Assembly (NCBI GenBank): GCA_015060405.1 | Contig: SUYN01000002.1 | Span: 186,001-250,000 of the forward strand | Source: Bacteroidales bacterium | GTDB lineage: Bacteria; Bacteroidota; Bacteroidia; Bacteroidales; UBA932 | Direction: 5' to 3' | DNA length: 64,000 bases | Shown: positions 9,936 to 36,259 of the stretch, piece by piece | How the letters are laid out: each line of letters begins with the position of its first letter | How positions within the stretch are numbered: position 1 is the first letter of the stretch | Program-made: the position numbers and the translations under genes | Notes under the pieces: model-generated | The model's input: only the letters and a program-made list of their open reading frames with translations | Told to the model about the DNA's origin: nothing | Databases searched by the model: none

Positions 9936-10448
9936 ATGGAAAAATGCATAATAGTAGCGATAGCGGACAATAATGCCATAGGAAGGGACAATGCCCTCCT
10001 ATGGCATATTTCCGAAGACCTGAAGTTCTTCAAGCGCACGACTTCGGGATGTCCGGTCATAATGGGACGCAAGACTTTCGAGTCCATAGGGCGTCCGCTC
10101 CCCAAACGTACGAATATCGTCATCTCACGCGGCTTTGATGCTCCAGAAGGGGTTATAGTGGCCGGTTCACTGGCAGAGGCCTATGCGGTTGCCGGATCAT
10201 CCGTCATTTCCGACCCGGTCGGGAATCCCCGCTGCTTCATAATGGGCGGCGGTCAGATATATGCCCAGGCCATGGCTGATGCGGACCGCCTTATCGTGAC
10301 CCATGTCCATACGGCCATCGAAGATGCCGACACATTCTTCCCGGAGATTGCCCCTTCGGAATGGGAGGTGGCCGAGCGTTCGGAGATGCTTCATGACGAG
10401 GAGACAGGATATGATTTTGAATTCGTTACCTACATACGTCACAACTAA
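9936..10448 (+). CDS. folA: Dihydrofolate reductase with in-frame repeat-derived segment
   Basis: NNAIGRDNALLWHISEDLKFFKRTTSGCPVIMGRKTFESIGRPLPKRTNIVIS; IMGGGQIYAQ. Confidence 0.95.
   Translation: MEKCIIVAIADNNAIGRDNALLWHISEDLKFFKRTTSGCPVIMGRKTFESIGRPLPKRTNIVISRGFDAPEGVIVAGSLAEAYAVAGSSVISDPVGNPRCFIMGGGQIYAQAMADADRLIVTHVHTAIEDADTFFPEIAPSEWEVAERSEMLHDEETGYDFEFVTYIRHN
10203..10227. repeat. Family A palindromic element inside folA
   Basis: GTCATTTCCGACCCGGTCGGGAATC in frame, encoding VISDPVGNP. Confidence 0.85.
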
Positions 10449-10459
10449 ATCGTTGTTTT

Positions 10460-11803
10460 ATGTCAAGAGATAGTTTCGGCAGCCGTTTCGGCGCTCTTGT
10501 AGCGATGGCCGGCTCAGCAGTGGGACTCGGCAACCTCTGGCGTTTCCCTTATCTGGTAGGAGAAAACGGAGGTGCTGCCTTCATCATAGTGTATATACTC
10601 TTGAGCTTCCTCATATGTCTTCCGATCTTCATTTCTGAATTCGTGGTCGGCAGAAGAAGCCAGAAGAACGCCTACGCCGCCTTCCGTGACCTTTCAGGGG
10701 GCTCTGCGTGGCGCTGGGTAGGACTTTTTACAATCATAGTTCCGCTGATAGTGCTGTCGTATTACAGCGTCATAGGAGGTTGGTCGGTCGACTATCTTCT
10801 CAAGTCATTCACATTCTCGTTTACCGGTGGAGAGTCTCAGAGTGCGATGGCCACCATGTTCTCGGACATGGTTTCATCGACATGGGCTCCTCTCCTTGCC
10901 CATACCGGCTTTCTTCTTACCACTATGCTCATCGTTGTGGTCGGAATCAAGGACGGCATAGAGAAATTCAGCAAGGTGATGATGCCGCTGCTGTTTGTAA
11001 TTGTCATCGCCATTGCTATATATTCGGTGACTCTTCCCGGAGCGAAGGCCGGTCTCGACTATCTCTTCAATCCGGATTTTTCAAAGATCAACGGTGAGGC
11101 GATAGCAGCAGCTCTCGGTCAGGCATTCTTCTCGCTTTCGCTCGGTTTCGGAACCATCATGACCTATGCCTCATATGTCGACAAGAAGGAGAATATAATG
11201 TTCCAGAGTACAGCGACGGCCGTTTCAGACCTCATGTTCGCCCTTATTGCAGGAACAGCGATCATGCCTGCAGTATTTGCTTTCGGCATAAATCCGCAGT
11301 CAGGCCCCGGCCTCGTCTTCGAGACACTTCCATATGTTTTCGGCCAGATGCCGGCAGGTGGTTTTATTGCCATCCTCTTCTTCCTCGCGCTGCTTGTGGC
11401 AGCGCTCACATCGTCTATCTCGATGCTGGAAGTCGCAGTCGCCTATCTTGTTGAAGAAAAGAACCTCTCACGAATCGGTGCCTGTGTAGTCCTGTTCGTC
11501 ATATGTTGGGTGGTCGGTGCTGTATGTTCGCTTTCTTTCGGCCCGCTCTCGCATGTGGAAATAGCAGGAGGTAACATCTTTGATTTCTTCGATGACTTGT
11601 CATCCAATATTCTGATGACCCTCGGAAGTCTCCTGACAGTCCTCTTCGTGGGCTGGAGGCTGAAGAAGACGGATGTATATGATGAGTTCACGAACGGAGG
11701 AGCCATAAGCAGGAATGCAAAGATCTTCGGTGTCCTCTGGATCCTCATCCGCTATGTCTGCCCTCTGGCAATCATTGCAATATTCATTTCCGGCCTCTTG
11801 TAG
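10460..11803 (+). CDS. Sodium-dependent transporter, NSS/SNF family
   Basis: DSFGSRFGALVAMAGSAVGLGNLWRFPYLVGENGGAAF. Confidence 0.92.
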   Translation: MSRDSFGSRFGALVAMAGSAVGLGNLWRFPYLVGENGGAAFIIVYILLSFLICLPIFISEFVVGRRSQKNAYAAFRDLSGGSAWRWVGLFTIIVPLIVLSYYSVIGGWSVDYLLKSFTFSFTGGESQSAMATMFSDMVSSTWAPLLAHTGFLLTTMLIVVVGIKDGIEKFSKVMMPLLFVIVIAIAIYSVTLPGAKAGLDYLFNPDFSKINGEAIAAALGQAFFSLSLGFGTIMTYASYVDKKENIMFQSTATAVSDLMFALIAGTAIMPAVFAFGINPQSGPGLVFETLPYVFGQMPAGGFIAILFFLALLVAALTSSISMLEVAVAYLVEEKNLSRIGACVVLFVICWVVGAVCSLSFGPLSHVEIAGGNIFDFFDDLSSNILMTLGSLLTVLFVGWRLKKTDVYDEFTNGGAISRNAKIFGVLWILIRYVCPLAIIAIFISGLL

Positions 11804-24792: not shown

Positions 24793-26334
24793 ATGATCAA
24801 GGCATTTGAAAATTACGAAATATGGTTCGTCACAGGAGCGCAGCTTCTGTATGGCGGCGACGCAGTTGTGCAGGTGGACGGCCACTCTTGTGCAATGGTT
24901 GAGGGAATGAACGCTTCCGGCATTCTTCCTGTCAAGGTTGTCTATAAAGGTACAGCCAACTCTTCCAATGAGGTGGCGGACATAATGAGTGCGGCAGAGG
25001 CAGACAAGAAATGCGTCGGTGTGATCACCTGGATGCACACTTTCTCTCCTGCAAAGATGTGGATACACGGAATGCAGAAGCTCCGCAAGCCTCTCCTTCA
25101 TTTCCACACTCAGTACAACGAGGAGATTCCTTGGGAGACTATGGATATGGACTTTATGAACCTCAACCAGAGTGCCCACGGAGACCGTGAGTTCGGTCAC
25201 ATCCTTGCACGTATGCGCAAGAACCACAAGACAGTGGTGGGCTACTGGAAGGATCCTAAGACCTTGGAGCACATAGCAGTGTGGCAGAGGGTTGCAGCTG
25301 CGTGGGCTGACTCTCAGGATATGAGGATAATCCGTTTCGGAGACCAGATGAACAACGTGGCTGTAACCGACGGAGATAAGGTCGAGGCTGAGATGCGCTT
25401 CGGCTATCACGTGGATTATATGCCTTTCAGCGAGGTTATGACCTATTTCGACAAGGTCGAGGATAAGGATGTCGATGACCTCGTGGCTGTGTATTTTTCT
25501 GAATATGACCACGCTCCGGAGCTTGAGGACAAGGCGTCAGAAGGCTATAGGAAAGTGTGGAACTCAGCAAAGGCCGAGCTTACCCTCCGAGCTGTCCTTA
25601 AAGACAAGAAGGCAAAGGCTTTCACTACCAACTTCGATGATCTGGGCGATGTGAATGTCAATGAGACAGGCCGTGGCTTCGACCAGATTCCTGGTCTTGC
25701 TTCTCAGCGACTTATGGTCGAGGGATATGGCTTCGGAGCTGAGGGCGACTGGAAATCGGCAGCGCTTTGCCGTACAGTGTGGTTTATGAGCCAGGGACTT
25801 CCTAAGGGATGTTCGTTCCTTGAGGACTACACCCTCCATTTCGACGGAGAACAGTCGGCTATCCTTCAGGCGCATATGCTTGAAATCTGTCCTCTCATTG
25901 CAGATGCAAGGCCTAAGCTTGAGGTCCATCATCTGGGAATCGGAGTACGCAAGGAGCAGACCGCACGTCTGGTGTTCACCAGCAAGACAGGCGACGGAGT
26001 CGCAGCTACTGTCGTGGATATGGGAGGCCGTTTCCGCCTCATAGTCAATGAGGTGAGATGCATAGAGTCAAAACCTCTTCCAAAACTCCCTGTCGCTTCC
26101 GCTCTGTGGATCCCTAAGCCTAATTTCGAGATCGGTGCAGGCGCGTGGATAATGGCCGGCGGTACTCACCATTCGTGCTTCTCTTACGACCTTACACCGG
26201 AGTACTGGGAGGATTATGCGGAAATCGCAGACATCGAGATGCTCCTGATCAACGATGATACTACCATCCCGAACTTCAAGAGGGATCTCAGGATCAACGA
26301 GATATATTATATGTTGAATAAAGCCCTCAAATAG
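24793..26334 (+). CDS. araA: L-arabinose isomerase
   Basis: YEIWFVTGAQLLYGGDAVVQV; ITWMHTFSPAKMWI; FHTQYNEEIPW. Confidence 0.97.
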   Translation: MIKAFENYEIWFVTGAQLLYGGDAVVQVDGHSCAMVEGMNASGILPVKVVYKGTANSSNEVADIMSAAEADKKCVGVITWMHTFSPAKMWIHGMQKLRKPLLHFHTQYNEEIPWETMDMDFMNLNQSAHGDREFGHILARMRKNHKTVVGYWKDPKTLEHIAVWQRVAAAWADSQDMRIIRFGDQMNNVAVTDGDKVEAEMRFGYHVDYMPFSEVMTYFDKVEDKDVDDLVAVYFSEYDHAPELEDKASEGYRKVWNSAKAELTLRAVLKDKKAKAFTTNFDDLGDVNVNETGRGFDQIPGLASQRLMVEGYGFGAEGDWKSAALCRTVWFMSQGLPKGCSFLEDYTLHFDGEQSAILQAHMLEICPLIADARPKLEVHHLGIGVRKEQTARLVFTSKTGDGVAATVVDMGGRFRLIVNEVRCIESKPLPKLPVASALWIPKPNFEIGAGAWIMAGGTHHSCFSYDLTPEYWEDYAEIADIEMLLINDDTTIPNFKRDLRINEIYYMLNKALK

Positions 26335-30878: not shown

Positions 30879-30915
30879 TTATCTATTGCCTACGAAGCTC
30901 TTGCCGACCCGATCC

Positions 30916-31038
30916 GTCATTCCCGACTCGATCGGGAATCCTTTCGCCCCCTCGTCCCCGTCATTTCCGCCCCGATCCGTCATTCCCGACTCGATCGGGA
31001 ATCCCCCTTCTGTCACCTCGAGCGAAGTCGAGAGGTCT
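30916..31038. repeat. Cluster of dispersed palindromic elements (two family A, one family B)
   Basis: GTCATTCCCGACTCGATCGGGAATC twice, then CTTCTGTCACCTCGAGCGAAGTCGAGAGGTCT. Confidence 0.9.
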
Positions 31039-31401: not shown

Positions 31402-31562
31402 AAAATCCCCGACCAAGGCCGGGGATGATAAGGTGTTGTGTTAGTATAGGGTTTCTGCTATTTTTTCGGCGAGGGCGAGGAAGGCGAGGCCGTCGGGGCG
31501 GGAGCTGAGAGCGGCGGGTTCGCCGGCGTCGCCGCATTCGCGGATGCTTTGGACGATCGGGA
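31402..31562. repeat. 161-bp duplicate of the mrp 3' end and flanking palindrome (left copy)
   Basis: Ungapped match to 36099-36259 with 4 mismatches by hand alignment. Confidence 0.95.
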
Positions 31563-31570
31563 ATCCCCCT

Positions 31571-31602
31571 TCTGTCATCTCTAGCGACCGGAGGGAGTCG
31601 AG
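31571..31602. repeat. Family B repeat
   Basis: TCTGTCATCTCTAGCGACCGGAGGGAGTCGAGAGATCT-type sequence. Confidence 0.75.
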
Positions 31603-31838: not shown

Positions 31839-34700
31839 ATGAAGAAACTTCACAGCTGCATCGCAGCCCTTTTTACTATATTTTCCCTCGTCTCCTGCCT
31901 CCAGGAAGAACGCTCTCCAGAAGAAATCCTCGTGCCGTCACCGGCGGAGGTAGACTGCTCGGAGTCGTTCTCCCTCACCTCCAAAGTTCCCAAGGGCTCC
32001 GAAAAGCTGGTGGAAGAGTGCGGCTTCCTCGTAGGAACCACAAAAGACCTTGCAGATGCGCTCACGGTTGAAGGTGCAATGACCGAAAACACCTTCAGCG
32101 CCGCCCTCCCTGCCCGCAAATACGGCACGACATATTACATCTGTTCGTATGTAACCAACGGACGAGGCTCCGAGATAAGGTCAGACCTAATCTCATATGA
32201 ACTCAAGTCCTTGGAGGAGTACGTTTCATTCGGCAAGATCAAGTTACTGTCCTATAATCCTCTGACCAAACAGGCCGAGATAACCATACCAGTTGAGATT
32301 CAGTCTGGCGTGAATGTGACTGAAGTCGGTGTCTGCTACGGCTCAAGCGAGTCTCTTTCTGATGAGGATACCTATGTCGAGGGTACAATCAGTGAGGACG
32401 GCACCATCACAGTTTCTCTTGAAGGCTTTAAAGATGGTACCCAGTACTATATGCGTCCGTACATAAAGGAGAATGAATATATTGCATATGCTGAGACATC
32501 TCCATTCTTTATTCAGCCTATTCCAGTGGTTGTCACCTATGCAGCCAAAGACATCACTTCCGAAAGCGCAGTACTTTCCGGAGAGGTGGAAAGAGGCGAA
32601 AACATTACCGAGAGGGGCTTCGTCTGGCTGAACGGTCAGGGCACTCCGACAATCGACTCCTACAAACTGAAGGTGGACGGAACCCTTGGAAAATTTACAG
32701 CCTCGCTCTCCGATCTCGATGCAAATTCAAGGTACGCTTACCGCGCCTATGTTGCAAATGACCAGGGCGTCTTCTATGGCGACATCCTGACTTTCAGCAC
32801 CATGGCCGGTGCCGCATCACTTTCAGCGATAAAGGTCACCAACATCACCACCTCCTCTGCGACCTTCACCTGTACCGTGACAAATCACGGCGGCGAGACC
32901 GTCTCTGAGGTTGGCTTCTACATCGGCAAAGATGAAGAAGTGGATATGGAAACAGCTCAGAAGGTCAGCGAGGCCTATAGCTCAGACAACTTCACCCTCT
33001 CAGCAGAGGACCTTGAAATCGGCCAGGACTACTATGTAAAGGCCTTCGCAAAGAACTCTGTAGGTGAGGCATACAGCGCAATAGTCTCCTTCAAGACCAT
33101 AAGCACCGCTCCAAGTGTCATAACTGTAGGTTCGTCAGAACTTTCAGCCACAAGCGCTGAACTCTCCGGTGAAGTCACCGACGACAACGGCGAAATCATC
33201 ACCGAGCGTGGTTTCGTGTGGATGAAAGGAAGCGGAACTCCTACAACTTCATCGTCTAAGTTGACCGCTGATGGCACCACAGGAGCCTTCACAGCAACCT
33301 TGACAGATGTTACTCCTAATCAGATATATTCATATAGAGCTTATGCAATAAACTCTATGGGTACTTCTTATGGTGAGGTGATGACCTTTGAAATACAGGT
33401 CGATCTGCCAACTGTCACCACAGATGAGGTAACCGACATTACGGACTTCAGCGCAGTTTCAGGAGGAAATGTTACCGCCGACGGTGGCGCAGACATTCTG
33501 GCCAAGGGAATAGTGTGGAGCCGTTCGAAGAATCCTACAGTGGACCTTGAGACCAAGACCGATGAAGGAACCGGCCTTGATTCCTTTACAAGCACAATGT
33601 CCAACCTGACCTCCGGCTCGACTTATTATGTCAGGGCTTACGCCACCAACGTCGTAGGAACAGGATATGGCAAGGAAATGGAATTCAAGACCACTGGCGA
33701 AGCCCCTTACGTCGCCCTTGAAGCTGCCAACTGTTTTATTGTTTCGGAATCTGGCATATATTCGTTCAGTACCGTAAAGGGTAATAGTTCCGAATCAGTT
33801 GGAAACGTAGAATGTGCAGAGGTTTTGTGGGAGTCTTTTGGAACATCGGAAACGCCGAAAGTAGGTTCTTTGGTATCTTCTGTTTCCGTTCAAGGCGACG
33901 CGATTGTCTTCGATGTTGCCGATCCTTACCGCGAGGGTAACGCAGTGATTGCGGCCAAGGATGCTTCTGGCACCATCCTTTGGTCTTGGCACATCTGGCT
34001 GACCGATGAGCCTGGGGAGCAGGTGTATTATAACAATGCGGGCACAATGATGGACCGCAACCTCGGTGCGACATCTGCTACTCCTGGCGATGTGGGTGCT
34101 TTGGGACTTTTGTACCAGTGGGGTCGTAAGGATCCATTCCTCGGTTCATCGTCTATCAGCAGTTCTACAGAGGCAAAATCCACCCTTACTTGGCCGTCAG
34201 CAGTATCGTCAGATTCTTCAACAGGTACAATAGAATATGCCACCGCGAATCCAACTACATTCATCACTTCCAATAGTAGTAATTACGATTGGTATTATAC
34301 TGGTTCAAGCAGTACAGACGACACCCGTTGGCAGTCAGAGAAGACAATATATGATCCTTGTCCTGCAGGTTGGCGTGTTCCCGATGGCGGAAGTGATGGT
34401 GTTTGGTCGAAAGCACTTGGTTCATCTTCATCTTATTCCGGGGCATACGACAGCACCAATGAGGGTATGAACTTCTCCGGCAATTTCGGCGATGCTTCCA
34501 CCATCTGGTATCCTGCTTCGGGTTATCGCATCTACGACGGTGGGGCGCTGCTCAATGTCGGCTACTATGGCTACTATTGGTCAGTTACTCCTGGCGATAG
34601 CTACGCTTACTACCTGTACTTCAGCAGCTCTGGCTACGTCTATCCGTCCTTCAGCTACTATCGAGCGGGCGGGTTTGGCGTCCGTTGCGTCCAAGAGTGA
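31839..34700 (+). CDS. DGR target: large lipoprotein with repeated FN3-like modules and C-terminal FISUMP/C-type-lectin-like variable domain
   Basis: MKKLHSCIAALFTIFSLVSC lipobox; repeated SAxLSGEV..TERGFVW..YxYRAYAxNxxG modules; DPCPAGWRVPDGG...VRCVQE; VR at the 3' end. Confidence 0.9.
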   Translation: MKKLHSCIAALFTIFSLVSCLQEERSPEEILVPSPAEVDCSESFSLTSKVPKGSEKLVEECGFLVGTTKDLADALTVEGAMTENTFSAALPARKYGTTYYICSYVTNGRGSEIRSDLISYELKSLEEYVSFGKIKLLSYNPLTKQAEITIPVEIQSGVNVTEVGVCYGSSESLSDEDTYVEGTISEDGTITVSLEGFKDGTQYYMRPYIKENEYIAYAETSPFFIQPIPVVVTYAAKDITSESAVLSGEVERGENITERGFVWLNGQGTPTIDSYKLKVDGTLGKFTASLSDLDANSRYAYRAYVANDQGVFYGDILTFSTMAGAASLSAIKVTNITTSSATFTCTVTNHGGETVSEVGFYIGKDEEVDMETAQKVSEAYSSDNFTLSAEDLEIGQDYYVKAFAKNSVGEAYSAIVSFKTISTAPSVITVGSSELSATSAELSGEVTDDNGEIITERGFVWMKGSGTPTTSSSKLTADGTTGAFTATLTDVTPNQIYSYRAYAINSMGTSYGEVMTFEIQVDLPTVTTDEVTDITDFSAVSGGNVTADGGADILAKGIVWSRSKNPTVDLETKTDEGTGLDSFTSTMSNLTSGSTYYVRAYATNVVGTGYGKEMEFKTTGEAPYVALEAANCFIVSESGIYSFSTVKGNSSESVGNVECAEVLWESFGTSETPKVGSLVSSVSVQGDAIVFDVADPYREGNAVIAAKDASGTILWSWHIWLTDEPGEQVYYNNAGTMMDRNLGATSATPGDVGALGLLYQWGRKDPFLGSSSISSSTEAKSTLTWPSAVSSDSSTGTIEYATANPTTFITSNSSNYDWYYTGSSSTDDTRWQSEKTIYDPCPAGWRVPDGGSDGVWSKALGSSSSYSGAYDSTNEGMNFSGNFGDASTIWYPASGYRIYDGGALLNVGYYGYYWSVTPGDSYAYYLYFSSSGYVYPSFSYYRAGGFGVRCVQE
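34512..34697 (+). repeat. DGR variable repeat (VR)
   Basis: Ungapped 186-bp alignment to 35701-35886; about 28 of 38 mismatches at template A. Confidence 0.95.
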
Positions 34701-34712
34701 TTCGGACAGCGG

Positions 34713-34745
34713 TTCATATGAGCCCTGCTCGCGGGCTCATATGAA
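34713..34745. promoter_or_regulatory. Perfect 13-bp inverted repeat with 7-nt loop just downstream of VR
   Basis: TTCATATGAGCCC-TGCTCGC-GGGCTCATATGAA. Confidence 0.85.
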
Positions 34746-34766
34746 CATGCGTTTTGATGAATTTTT

Positions 34767-34804
34767 TCTCGCGCCCGGCGCGAGACGGCAGGCGCGAAGC
34801 GCCT
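34767..34804. repeat. Two further GC-rich hairpins
   Basis: TCTCGCGCC-C-GGCGCGAGA and AGGCGC-GAA-GCGCCT. Confidence 0.7.
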
Positions 34805-34828
34805 CAAATTTCAAATATTCTTATTGTT

Positions 34829-35533
34829 ATGACCTTTAGAGAAATCATAGAAAGAGAGGACCAGAATATTGATTGTATCTGGCTGTACCGAGAAGGAATG
34901 TTTATGAAGGCGTATGAGAGAAGTGCATTTTTTGTCCATACCCTAATTCATGAGTTCAAGCTTTCTAAGAGGTATATCAAAACCATTAATATGGATGTCA
35001 TCTCTCTTGGATTTCCAGAACAGACTGTGCCCAAATGGCTAAATGGTTATGTGTATGAGTATGTTCAAGATGGTTTGATAAGATGTTTCAGCCGTAAGAA
35101 ATACGATGAGGTGGAATTCCATAATTGGAAGGAGGTGGCGAAGGTCAATGTCGGTGATCGCTTTACACCTAATACATCTGTGATAGAAAAGGCACCTGTA
35201 TATAAAACTGCATATGATCTTCTTACTCAGGTTGTTGGCTTTAGTGTACACCTTTCAAGAAATGTTTCTGATCCTATCGGTATACATCTCAAAGAACTTA
35301 CATATAAACTATGTTATACTATCCGTATGATGTACGATGTTAAGGATAAGGAGACACAGATTATTAAGGCCCTTGAATTCTGTGATGAGATCAAGTTTGT
35401 ACTCCAATTGTTCAAAGACTTAAAAGAAATATCAATTAATACTTTTGCGCTTGCAAGTGAACGTGTCGTATCTGTCAGCAAACAGCTCTCTGCACTTCGT
35501 GGAAAGGTTACGGCTGAAATACACGGGGTTTGA
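34829..35533 (+). CDS. DGR accessory protein: MutS domain I-like N-terminus fused to Avd-like helical C-terminus
   Basis: N-terminus DCIWLYREGMFMKAYERSAFFVHTL...GFPEQTVPKWL resembles MutS-I; C-terminus KTAYDLLTQVVGFSVHLSRN...LKDLKEISINTFALASERVVSVSKQLSALRG is Avd-like; lies between VR and TR. Confidence 0.75.
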   Translation: MTFREIIEREDQNIDCIWLYREGMFMKAYERSAFFVHTLIHEFKLSKRYIKTINMDVISLGFPEQTVPKWLNGYVYEYVQDGLIRCFSRKKYDEVEFHNWKEVAKVNVGDRFTPNTSVIEKAPVYKTAYDLLTQVVGFSVHLSRNVSDPIGIHLKELTYKLCYTIRMMYDVKDKETQIIKALEFCDEIKFVLQLFKDLKEISINTFALASERVVSVSKQLSALRGKVTAEIHGV

Positions 35534-35700
35534 ATGATTCAGCAGCCCACCGCCACCGGATAATTCTGTCTTTTACAGGATGAAGAATCTATGTCCGACG
35601 GTCATATATACTAGTCTGCTTAGGTGTCAACGTCAAGTTTCCGCTTAGGCATTCATCAAAAGATAGGTTCTACCGACTCTTATAGCGGCTGCTTTAAATG

Positions 35701-35886
35701 CCTGCTTCGGGTTATCGCAACAACGACGATGGGGCGCTGAACAATGTCGGCAACAATGGCAACTATTGGTCAGTTACTCCTAACAATAACAACGCTTACA
35801 ACCTGAACTTCAACAACAATGGCAATGTCAATCCGACGAACAACAACAATCGGGCGTCCGGCTTCTCGGTCCGTTGCGTCCAAGAA
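35701..35886 (+). repeat. DGR template repeat (TR)
   Basis: AAC/AAT-rich (22 AAY codons) non-variable counterpart of VR; conceptual translation GYRNNDDGALNNVGNNGNYWSVTPNNNNAYNLNFNNNGNVNPTNNNNRASGFSVRCVQE. Confidence 0.95.
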
Positions 35887-35932
35887 TCAGAATAATTCGA
35901 TTAGCGAGTCCGTATGCCCCAGCGTAGCAAGG

Positions 35933-35988
35933 GCAGAGGGACCTCCGACACTTTTTCAGCAATACTGTCGGAGGTCCCTGCTTTTTTT
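35933..35988 (+). terminator. Strong stem-loop with T tract downstream of TR
   Basis: GGGACCTCCGACA...TGTCGGAGGTCCC then CTTTTTTT. Confidence 0.8.
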
Positions 35989-35989
35989 G

Positions 35990-36032
35990 GGGTATCTCCG
36001 ACACAAATCCCGTAAAAGTGTCGGAGGTACCC
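35990..36032. repeat. Second inverted repeat sharing the CTCCGACA core
   Basis: GGGTATCTCCGACAC...GTGTCGGAGGTACCC. Confidence 0.8.
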
Positions 36033-36098: not shown

Positions 36099-36259
36099 AA
36101 AATCCCCGACCAAGGCCGGGGATGATAAGGTGTTGTGTTAGTATAGGGTTTCTGCTACTTTTTCGGCGAGGGAGAGGAAGGCGAGGCCGTCGGGGCGGGA
36201 GCTGAGGGCGGCTGGTTCGCCGGCGTCGCCGCATTCGCGGATGCTTTGGACGATCGGGA
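36099..36259. repeat. 161-bp repeat containing mrp 3' end (right, native copy)
   Basis: Matches 31402-31562. Confidence 0.95.

Follow-up and report, generated by a model that had tools for sequence, protein, structure and literature searches.

The window, a 64,000-nt stretch of a Bacteroidales contig, contains between an esterase gene and mrp a cassette composed of a gene for a predicted lipoprotein, an accessory gene and a template repeat (TR), all on the forward strand (Table 1). The 3′ end of the lipoprotein gene is a variable repeat (VR), and the lipoprotein is the target, or variable protein (VP), of a diversity-generating retroelement (DGR).

Table 1. Coordinates of the DGR features in the window and of the VRs elsewhere in the same genome
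Feature	Position	Strand	Basis
Target (variable) protein gene, predicted lipoprotein with MKKLHSCIAALFTIFSLVSC lipobox, fn3-like repeats and FISUMP-like C-terminus	31839..34700	+	homologous start in VP paralogue L085
VR	34512..34697	+	gap-free alignment with TR, A bias
Inverted repeat 3′ of VR, target-site hairpin/cruciform	34712..34746	+	compensatory changes among the hairpins of related VPs
DGR accessory gene: MutS domain I-like N-terminus, Avd-like four-helix bundle C-terminus	34829..35533	+	profiles, predicted fold
TR leader	35599..35700	+	conserved with TR leaders of relatives; one copy in own genome
TR	35701..35886	+	gap-free alignment, A bias, comparison with relatives
Start of the RT frame, a remnant (MAMSIRRTTTIGRPASRSVASKNQ); the intact RT of relatives has the homologous MATSIRRTTTIART...	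35819..35890	+	ORF list, comparison with relatives
Putative recombination scar: RT code replaced by a 3′ end of VR/VP type and a downstream flank of VP type	35854..35938	+	TCC codon, flank comparison
Decayed copy of VP-type target hairpin behind TR	35908..35942	+	comparison with VP flanks
Remote VR	C3:76223-76408		
Remote VR	C2:176098-176286		
Two remote VRs, one gene	C27:27079-27264 and 26023-26205		
Remote VR	C2:125962-126144		

The cassette is bracketed by two copies of 161 nt from the mrp 3′ end (31402-31562 and 36099-36259, 98% identical), as if it had brought a copy of the mrp end along; an ORF6N fragment comes after the left one. A mobile-element reading of this repeat was considered; neither an integrase nor an empty site came to light. 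S46 and mrp keep their synteny, and the sequence beyond mrp differs from species to species. Between the TR and mrp (35938-36031), a T run accompanied by two related inverted repeats, CTCCGACAC / GTGTCGGAG, is probably a terminator, and short dispersed repeats, GTCATTCCCGACTCGATCGGGAATCC and CGATCGGGAATCCCCCTTCTGTCA, are located between the esterase and VP genes (30901-31025 and 31554-31587).

The repeat pair, the target gene and the accessory gene

The TR and the VR align without gaps over 186 nt with 38 mismatches, 28 of them opposite template A, so that the boundaries and the approximate counts of the initial annotation proved exact. The TR contains 56 A in 186 nt; 28/56 A sites and 10/130 non-A sites are changed (Fisher p = 3.9e-10). 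In TR positions 1-124 the changes affect 20/40 A sites and 0/84 non-A sites, in agreement with the earlier statement that the first 41 codons differ only at template A, and in positions 125-186 they affect 8/16 A sites and 10/46 non-A sites. All ten non-A differences are therefore clustered in the last 62 nt. Our recount also gave 21 altered AAY codons of the 22 in the TR, as annotated. The pair is the longest direct repeat within the 12-kb neighbourhood and has the properties of a DGR repeat: it is imperfect, its mismatches lie at template adenines, and its VR is inside a coding sequence.

The listed open reading frame of the target gene begins at TTG, 31716, upstream of the start adopted here. 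The C-terminus, annotated initially as a FISUMP/C-type-lectin fold, matched PF09603 (Fib_succ_major) with E 0.0015 and TIGR02145 with E 3.8e-6, neither reaching the curated cut-off, and the fold is backed by these sub-threshold matches only; the predicted VP structure is a poor model (pLDDT 33). A likeness of the VP to the PLC-gamma SH2 domain among PDB sequence matches was dismissed as chance (E 0.06 and worse). A 14-bp inverted repeat follows the VR stop codon, the hairpin just 3′ of the VR that is typical for DGRs. Hairpins at the equivalent site 3′ of related VPs differ in sequence with the pairing kept, and two-sided changes were found in 7 of the 14 consensus pairs. In the phage BPP-1 system, a structure of this kind 3′ of the VR is needed for homing, with a stem sequence that can vary (PMC3240598); the window repeat agrees with that requirement.

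The C-terminus of the accessory protein matches PHROG 3206, 'Avd protein of DGR' (E 1.1e-4; L094 orthologue, E 2.2e-7). Its predicted fold is a four-helix bundle matching S23-family proteins, Avd (PDB 4dwl) and the DGR RNP (PDB 8ube), with TMt 0.86-0.88 against 4dwl, the N-terminal half of the model being of low confidence. By the PHROG 3206 and 4dwl matches, the gene encodes the DGR accessory protein (Avd or equivalent). The MutS_I profile is sub-threshold in the window protein and above the cut-off in the L094 orthologue; we assign the protein, by Pfam, to the MutS-like accessory class. A phage origin was probed with the accessory protein in IMG/VR, where it has no relative.

The missing reverse transcriptase and the RT-bearing relatives

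We detected no match to PF00078 (RVT_1) in the genome of the window, the window included (94.26% complete, 30 contigs). A DGR-RT profile (A1), built from nine RT sequences of relatives, matched only the TR itself in this genome and no RT; as a control, it recovered the full RTs in 4/4 genomes known to bear one. Beyond the window, the genome was examined by searches and by the sequence stretches around the matches. The absence of a DGR-type RT near the TR had gone unremarked in the initial annotation: all that remains is a 24-codon start remnant, a frame that opens in the window and is interrupted where the TR ends.

The accessory protein has its three closest homologues in L093, L094 and L095 (Bacteroidales MAGs, 77-79%), all of which show the order VP, accessory gene, TR and RT, with the RT start inside the TR. 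In L094, the RT is followed by another VP in direct orientation, and the VR of this second VP is 81% identical to the TR. Apart from the window, a TR-specific pattern run on 399 family genomes in search of further RT-less TRs matched only in the L093 and L095 genomes, both RT-bearing; among the 4 known TRs of this subtype the window's alone is without RT. The mismatches located at A in RT-bearing relatives are 14/14, 17/17, 22/22, 44/44, 22/23, 20/23, 18/21, 24/25, 28/33 and 29/35. The window's 28/38 is the lowest share, yet it is close to the last two, and such non-A mismatches in systems with an RT count against inactivation of the window DGR.

Near one RT, in L045 (G019:C28), there are two TR-like copies (10473-10630 and 10021-10158); every mismatch of the VR to the first copy is at A (17/17), and the comparison with the second is less clean (16/25). 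VR-like VP ends were also observed in L097, L109 and L111 (G163) and L098 (G169), with mismatches to the L094 TR at A of 22/29, 25/31, 31/41 and 23/29; no DGR RT was found in these two MAGs, G163 being 95% complete.

In the relatives, the TR end continues directly into RT coding sequence. The window TR ends in CGGGCGTCCGGCTTCTCGGTCCGTTGCGTCCAAGAATCAGAATAATTCGATTAGCGAGTCC, a VP end with a stop codon, and then a decayed hairpin follows. The 41 aligned nt behind it are identical at 35-36/41 positions to the VP flanks L081a, L083 and L086, elsewhere in the same genome, versus 14-22 of 34-36 positions to RT coding sequence. The codon 35856-35858 is TCC in the window TR and AAC in the relatives' TRs, and TCC looks like a mutated VR codon. 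A chimeric assembly, in which the TR was falsely joined to the VR of a second target and the RT is missing from the bin, could produce such an end, since TR/VR repeats are hard to assemble and several VP genes, as well as the cassettes of relatives, are situated close to contig ends. We regard it as quite improbable: the scar flank is unique, the best other assembled VP flank being ~82%, a false join before TCC needs a long exact match within A-rich sequence that is about half mutated in the VRs, and the decayed hairpin suggests a genuine junction of some age.

The accessory gene is intact and under purifying selection (dN/dS ~0.05, with saturated dS); therefore either the RT loss is recent or the gene is still used.

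Remote variable repeats and the order of writing

Five further VRs are present in the genome, with 24-30 A and 8-12 non-A differences from the TR and a match of ~92% at non-A sites. In total, at least six VRs in five genes were detected, with p values of the A bias from 1.7e-7 to 6e-11 across the six. The distant VP paralogues L086, L087 and L081b, with much weaker A bias against the window TR, were left out of this set. Pairs of VRs are identical at 0.85-0.94 of non-A sites versus 0.21-0.53 of AAY sites and thus were each written separately. With an open frame (65 aa) and many FISUMP-like paralogues in the genome, the TR could be taken for an ordinary diverged paralogue fragment with an A bias by chance; the six A-biased VRs, as well as the TR leader, accessory gene and RT conserved around the homologous TR in relatives, make this hardly credible.

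The gene L084 (9018-12986, G000:C27) has an internal and a C-terminal VR, both in tandem FISUMP-like domains. The VR-bearing VP gene upstream of 9508 in L083 (G000:C2) is already a pseudogene, broken by a frameshift and stops, which speaks for inactivation of the DGR.

The TR positions 57, 87 and 96 are T in the TR and in the adjacent VR and have another base, mostly that of the relatives' TRs, in all five remote VRs, suggesting that the remote VRs were probably written before these TR changes and the adjacent VR after them. A second, unassembled TR would equally explain these differences. At the scar codon, the six VRs have GGC, GAC, CGC, AAC, TTC and TTC. TCC being in none of them, none was written from the scarred TR and all predate the scar, which fits RT loss at the scar. 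From these comparisons, the likely order is the writing of the remote VRs, then the TR substitutions, then the adjacent VR and, last, the scarring event in which the RT was lost.

It is also conceivable, but in our assessment unlikely, that the DGR is active in trans, an RT and perhaps a second TR in an unassembled part of the genome or a mobile element serving the window TR and accessory protein. The incomplete assembly and the purifying selection on the accessory gene are in favour of it. So are the remote VRs, which differ from the TR at 57, 87, 96 and also 178, and mostly agree with the relatives' TRs at these positions, as if written from another or older TR, and the adjacent VR, which is identical to the TR at all 84 non-A sites of the first 124 nt, so that the last homing is not ancient. 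However, a VP-type flank fills the canonical RT position, no VR carries TCC, the TR leader is single in the assembly, and an older state of one TR accounts for the remote VRs without a second one.

The DGR reading of the initial annotation stands as regards descent from a DGR, the TR/VR assignment and A-specific mutagenic retrohoming that targets the C-terminal end of an exported lipoprotein, on the basis of the A bias, the relatives and the accessory gene. The present-day activity that it implied is not borne out: no RT is detectable, the RT frame stops short at the end of the TR, and no VR has TCC. This last point argues indirectly against A-specific diversification still going on in the population, and the system is probably inactive at present.

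Candidate route of RT loss and comparison with known DGRs

We regard the locus as a DGR by descent, probably one recently inactivated through recombination of the TR with a downstream VR, with its targets frozen. The TR lineage would have diversified its VRs by mutagenic retrohoming before the inactivation. The TR, through its 3′ part, may then have recombined, by homology or short homology, with the VR of a second target downstream of the RT. This would have taken out the RT and the body of the second target gene, and the product would be the VP, the accessory gene and the TR joined to the 3′ flank of the second target beside mrp. The VRs would since then be frozen surface variants. The L094 layout, with the second VP behind the RT in the same direction, is the arrangement required for such a deletion. 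Counting against inactivation, some VP genes are at contig ends of the incomplete assembly and the RT could lie elsewhere. No sister strain with an intact locus was found.

Surveys for DGRs take the RT gene as their starting point, for instance by selecting RTs that have an imperfect repeat no more than 1 kb away (PMC8144416), so an RT-less TR/VR cassette, the window locus included, is invisible to them, and the number and loss of DGRs are probably misjudged by RT-anchored surveys. No earlier description of an RT-less DGR was found in the literature searched, which is weak evidence with the incomplete coverage of journals. We tentatively propose, as a possibility that is still doubtful, that TR recombination with a downstream VR is a built-in RT-loss route of multi-target DGRs, and that RT-less relics with frozen targets, or RT-borrowing satellites, form a class hidden from RT-anchored searches. 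The route proposed for the window locus is open to testing and would let a diversifying system turn itself off, fixing a set of surface proteins.

The closest known systems are the Bacteroidales chromosomal DGRs L093 (SIG154), L094 (SIG150) and L095 (RGIG1763), which share with the window a VP with a C-terminal VR and downstream hairpin, the accessory gene at 77-79% identity, and a homologous TR leader and TR. They keep the RT, whereas the window has a VP-type flank behind the TR instead. The phage BPP-1 DGR (Mtd/Avd/Brt) likewise has A-specific TR-to-VR transfer, an Avd-fold accessory protein and an inverted repeat 3′ of the VR (PMC3240598). BPP-1 has an RT and one target; the window system, in contrast, has no RT and several targets, an Avd-like domain fused to a MutS-I-like domain, and longer hairpin stems. 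Multiple VRs were described for 271 DGRs, 31 of them with several VRs per ORF (PMC6642488), similar to the several VRs of the window genome, including two per gene in L084; those multi-target DGRs were reported with an RT, while the window system is without one.
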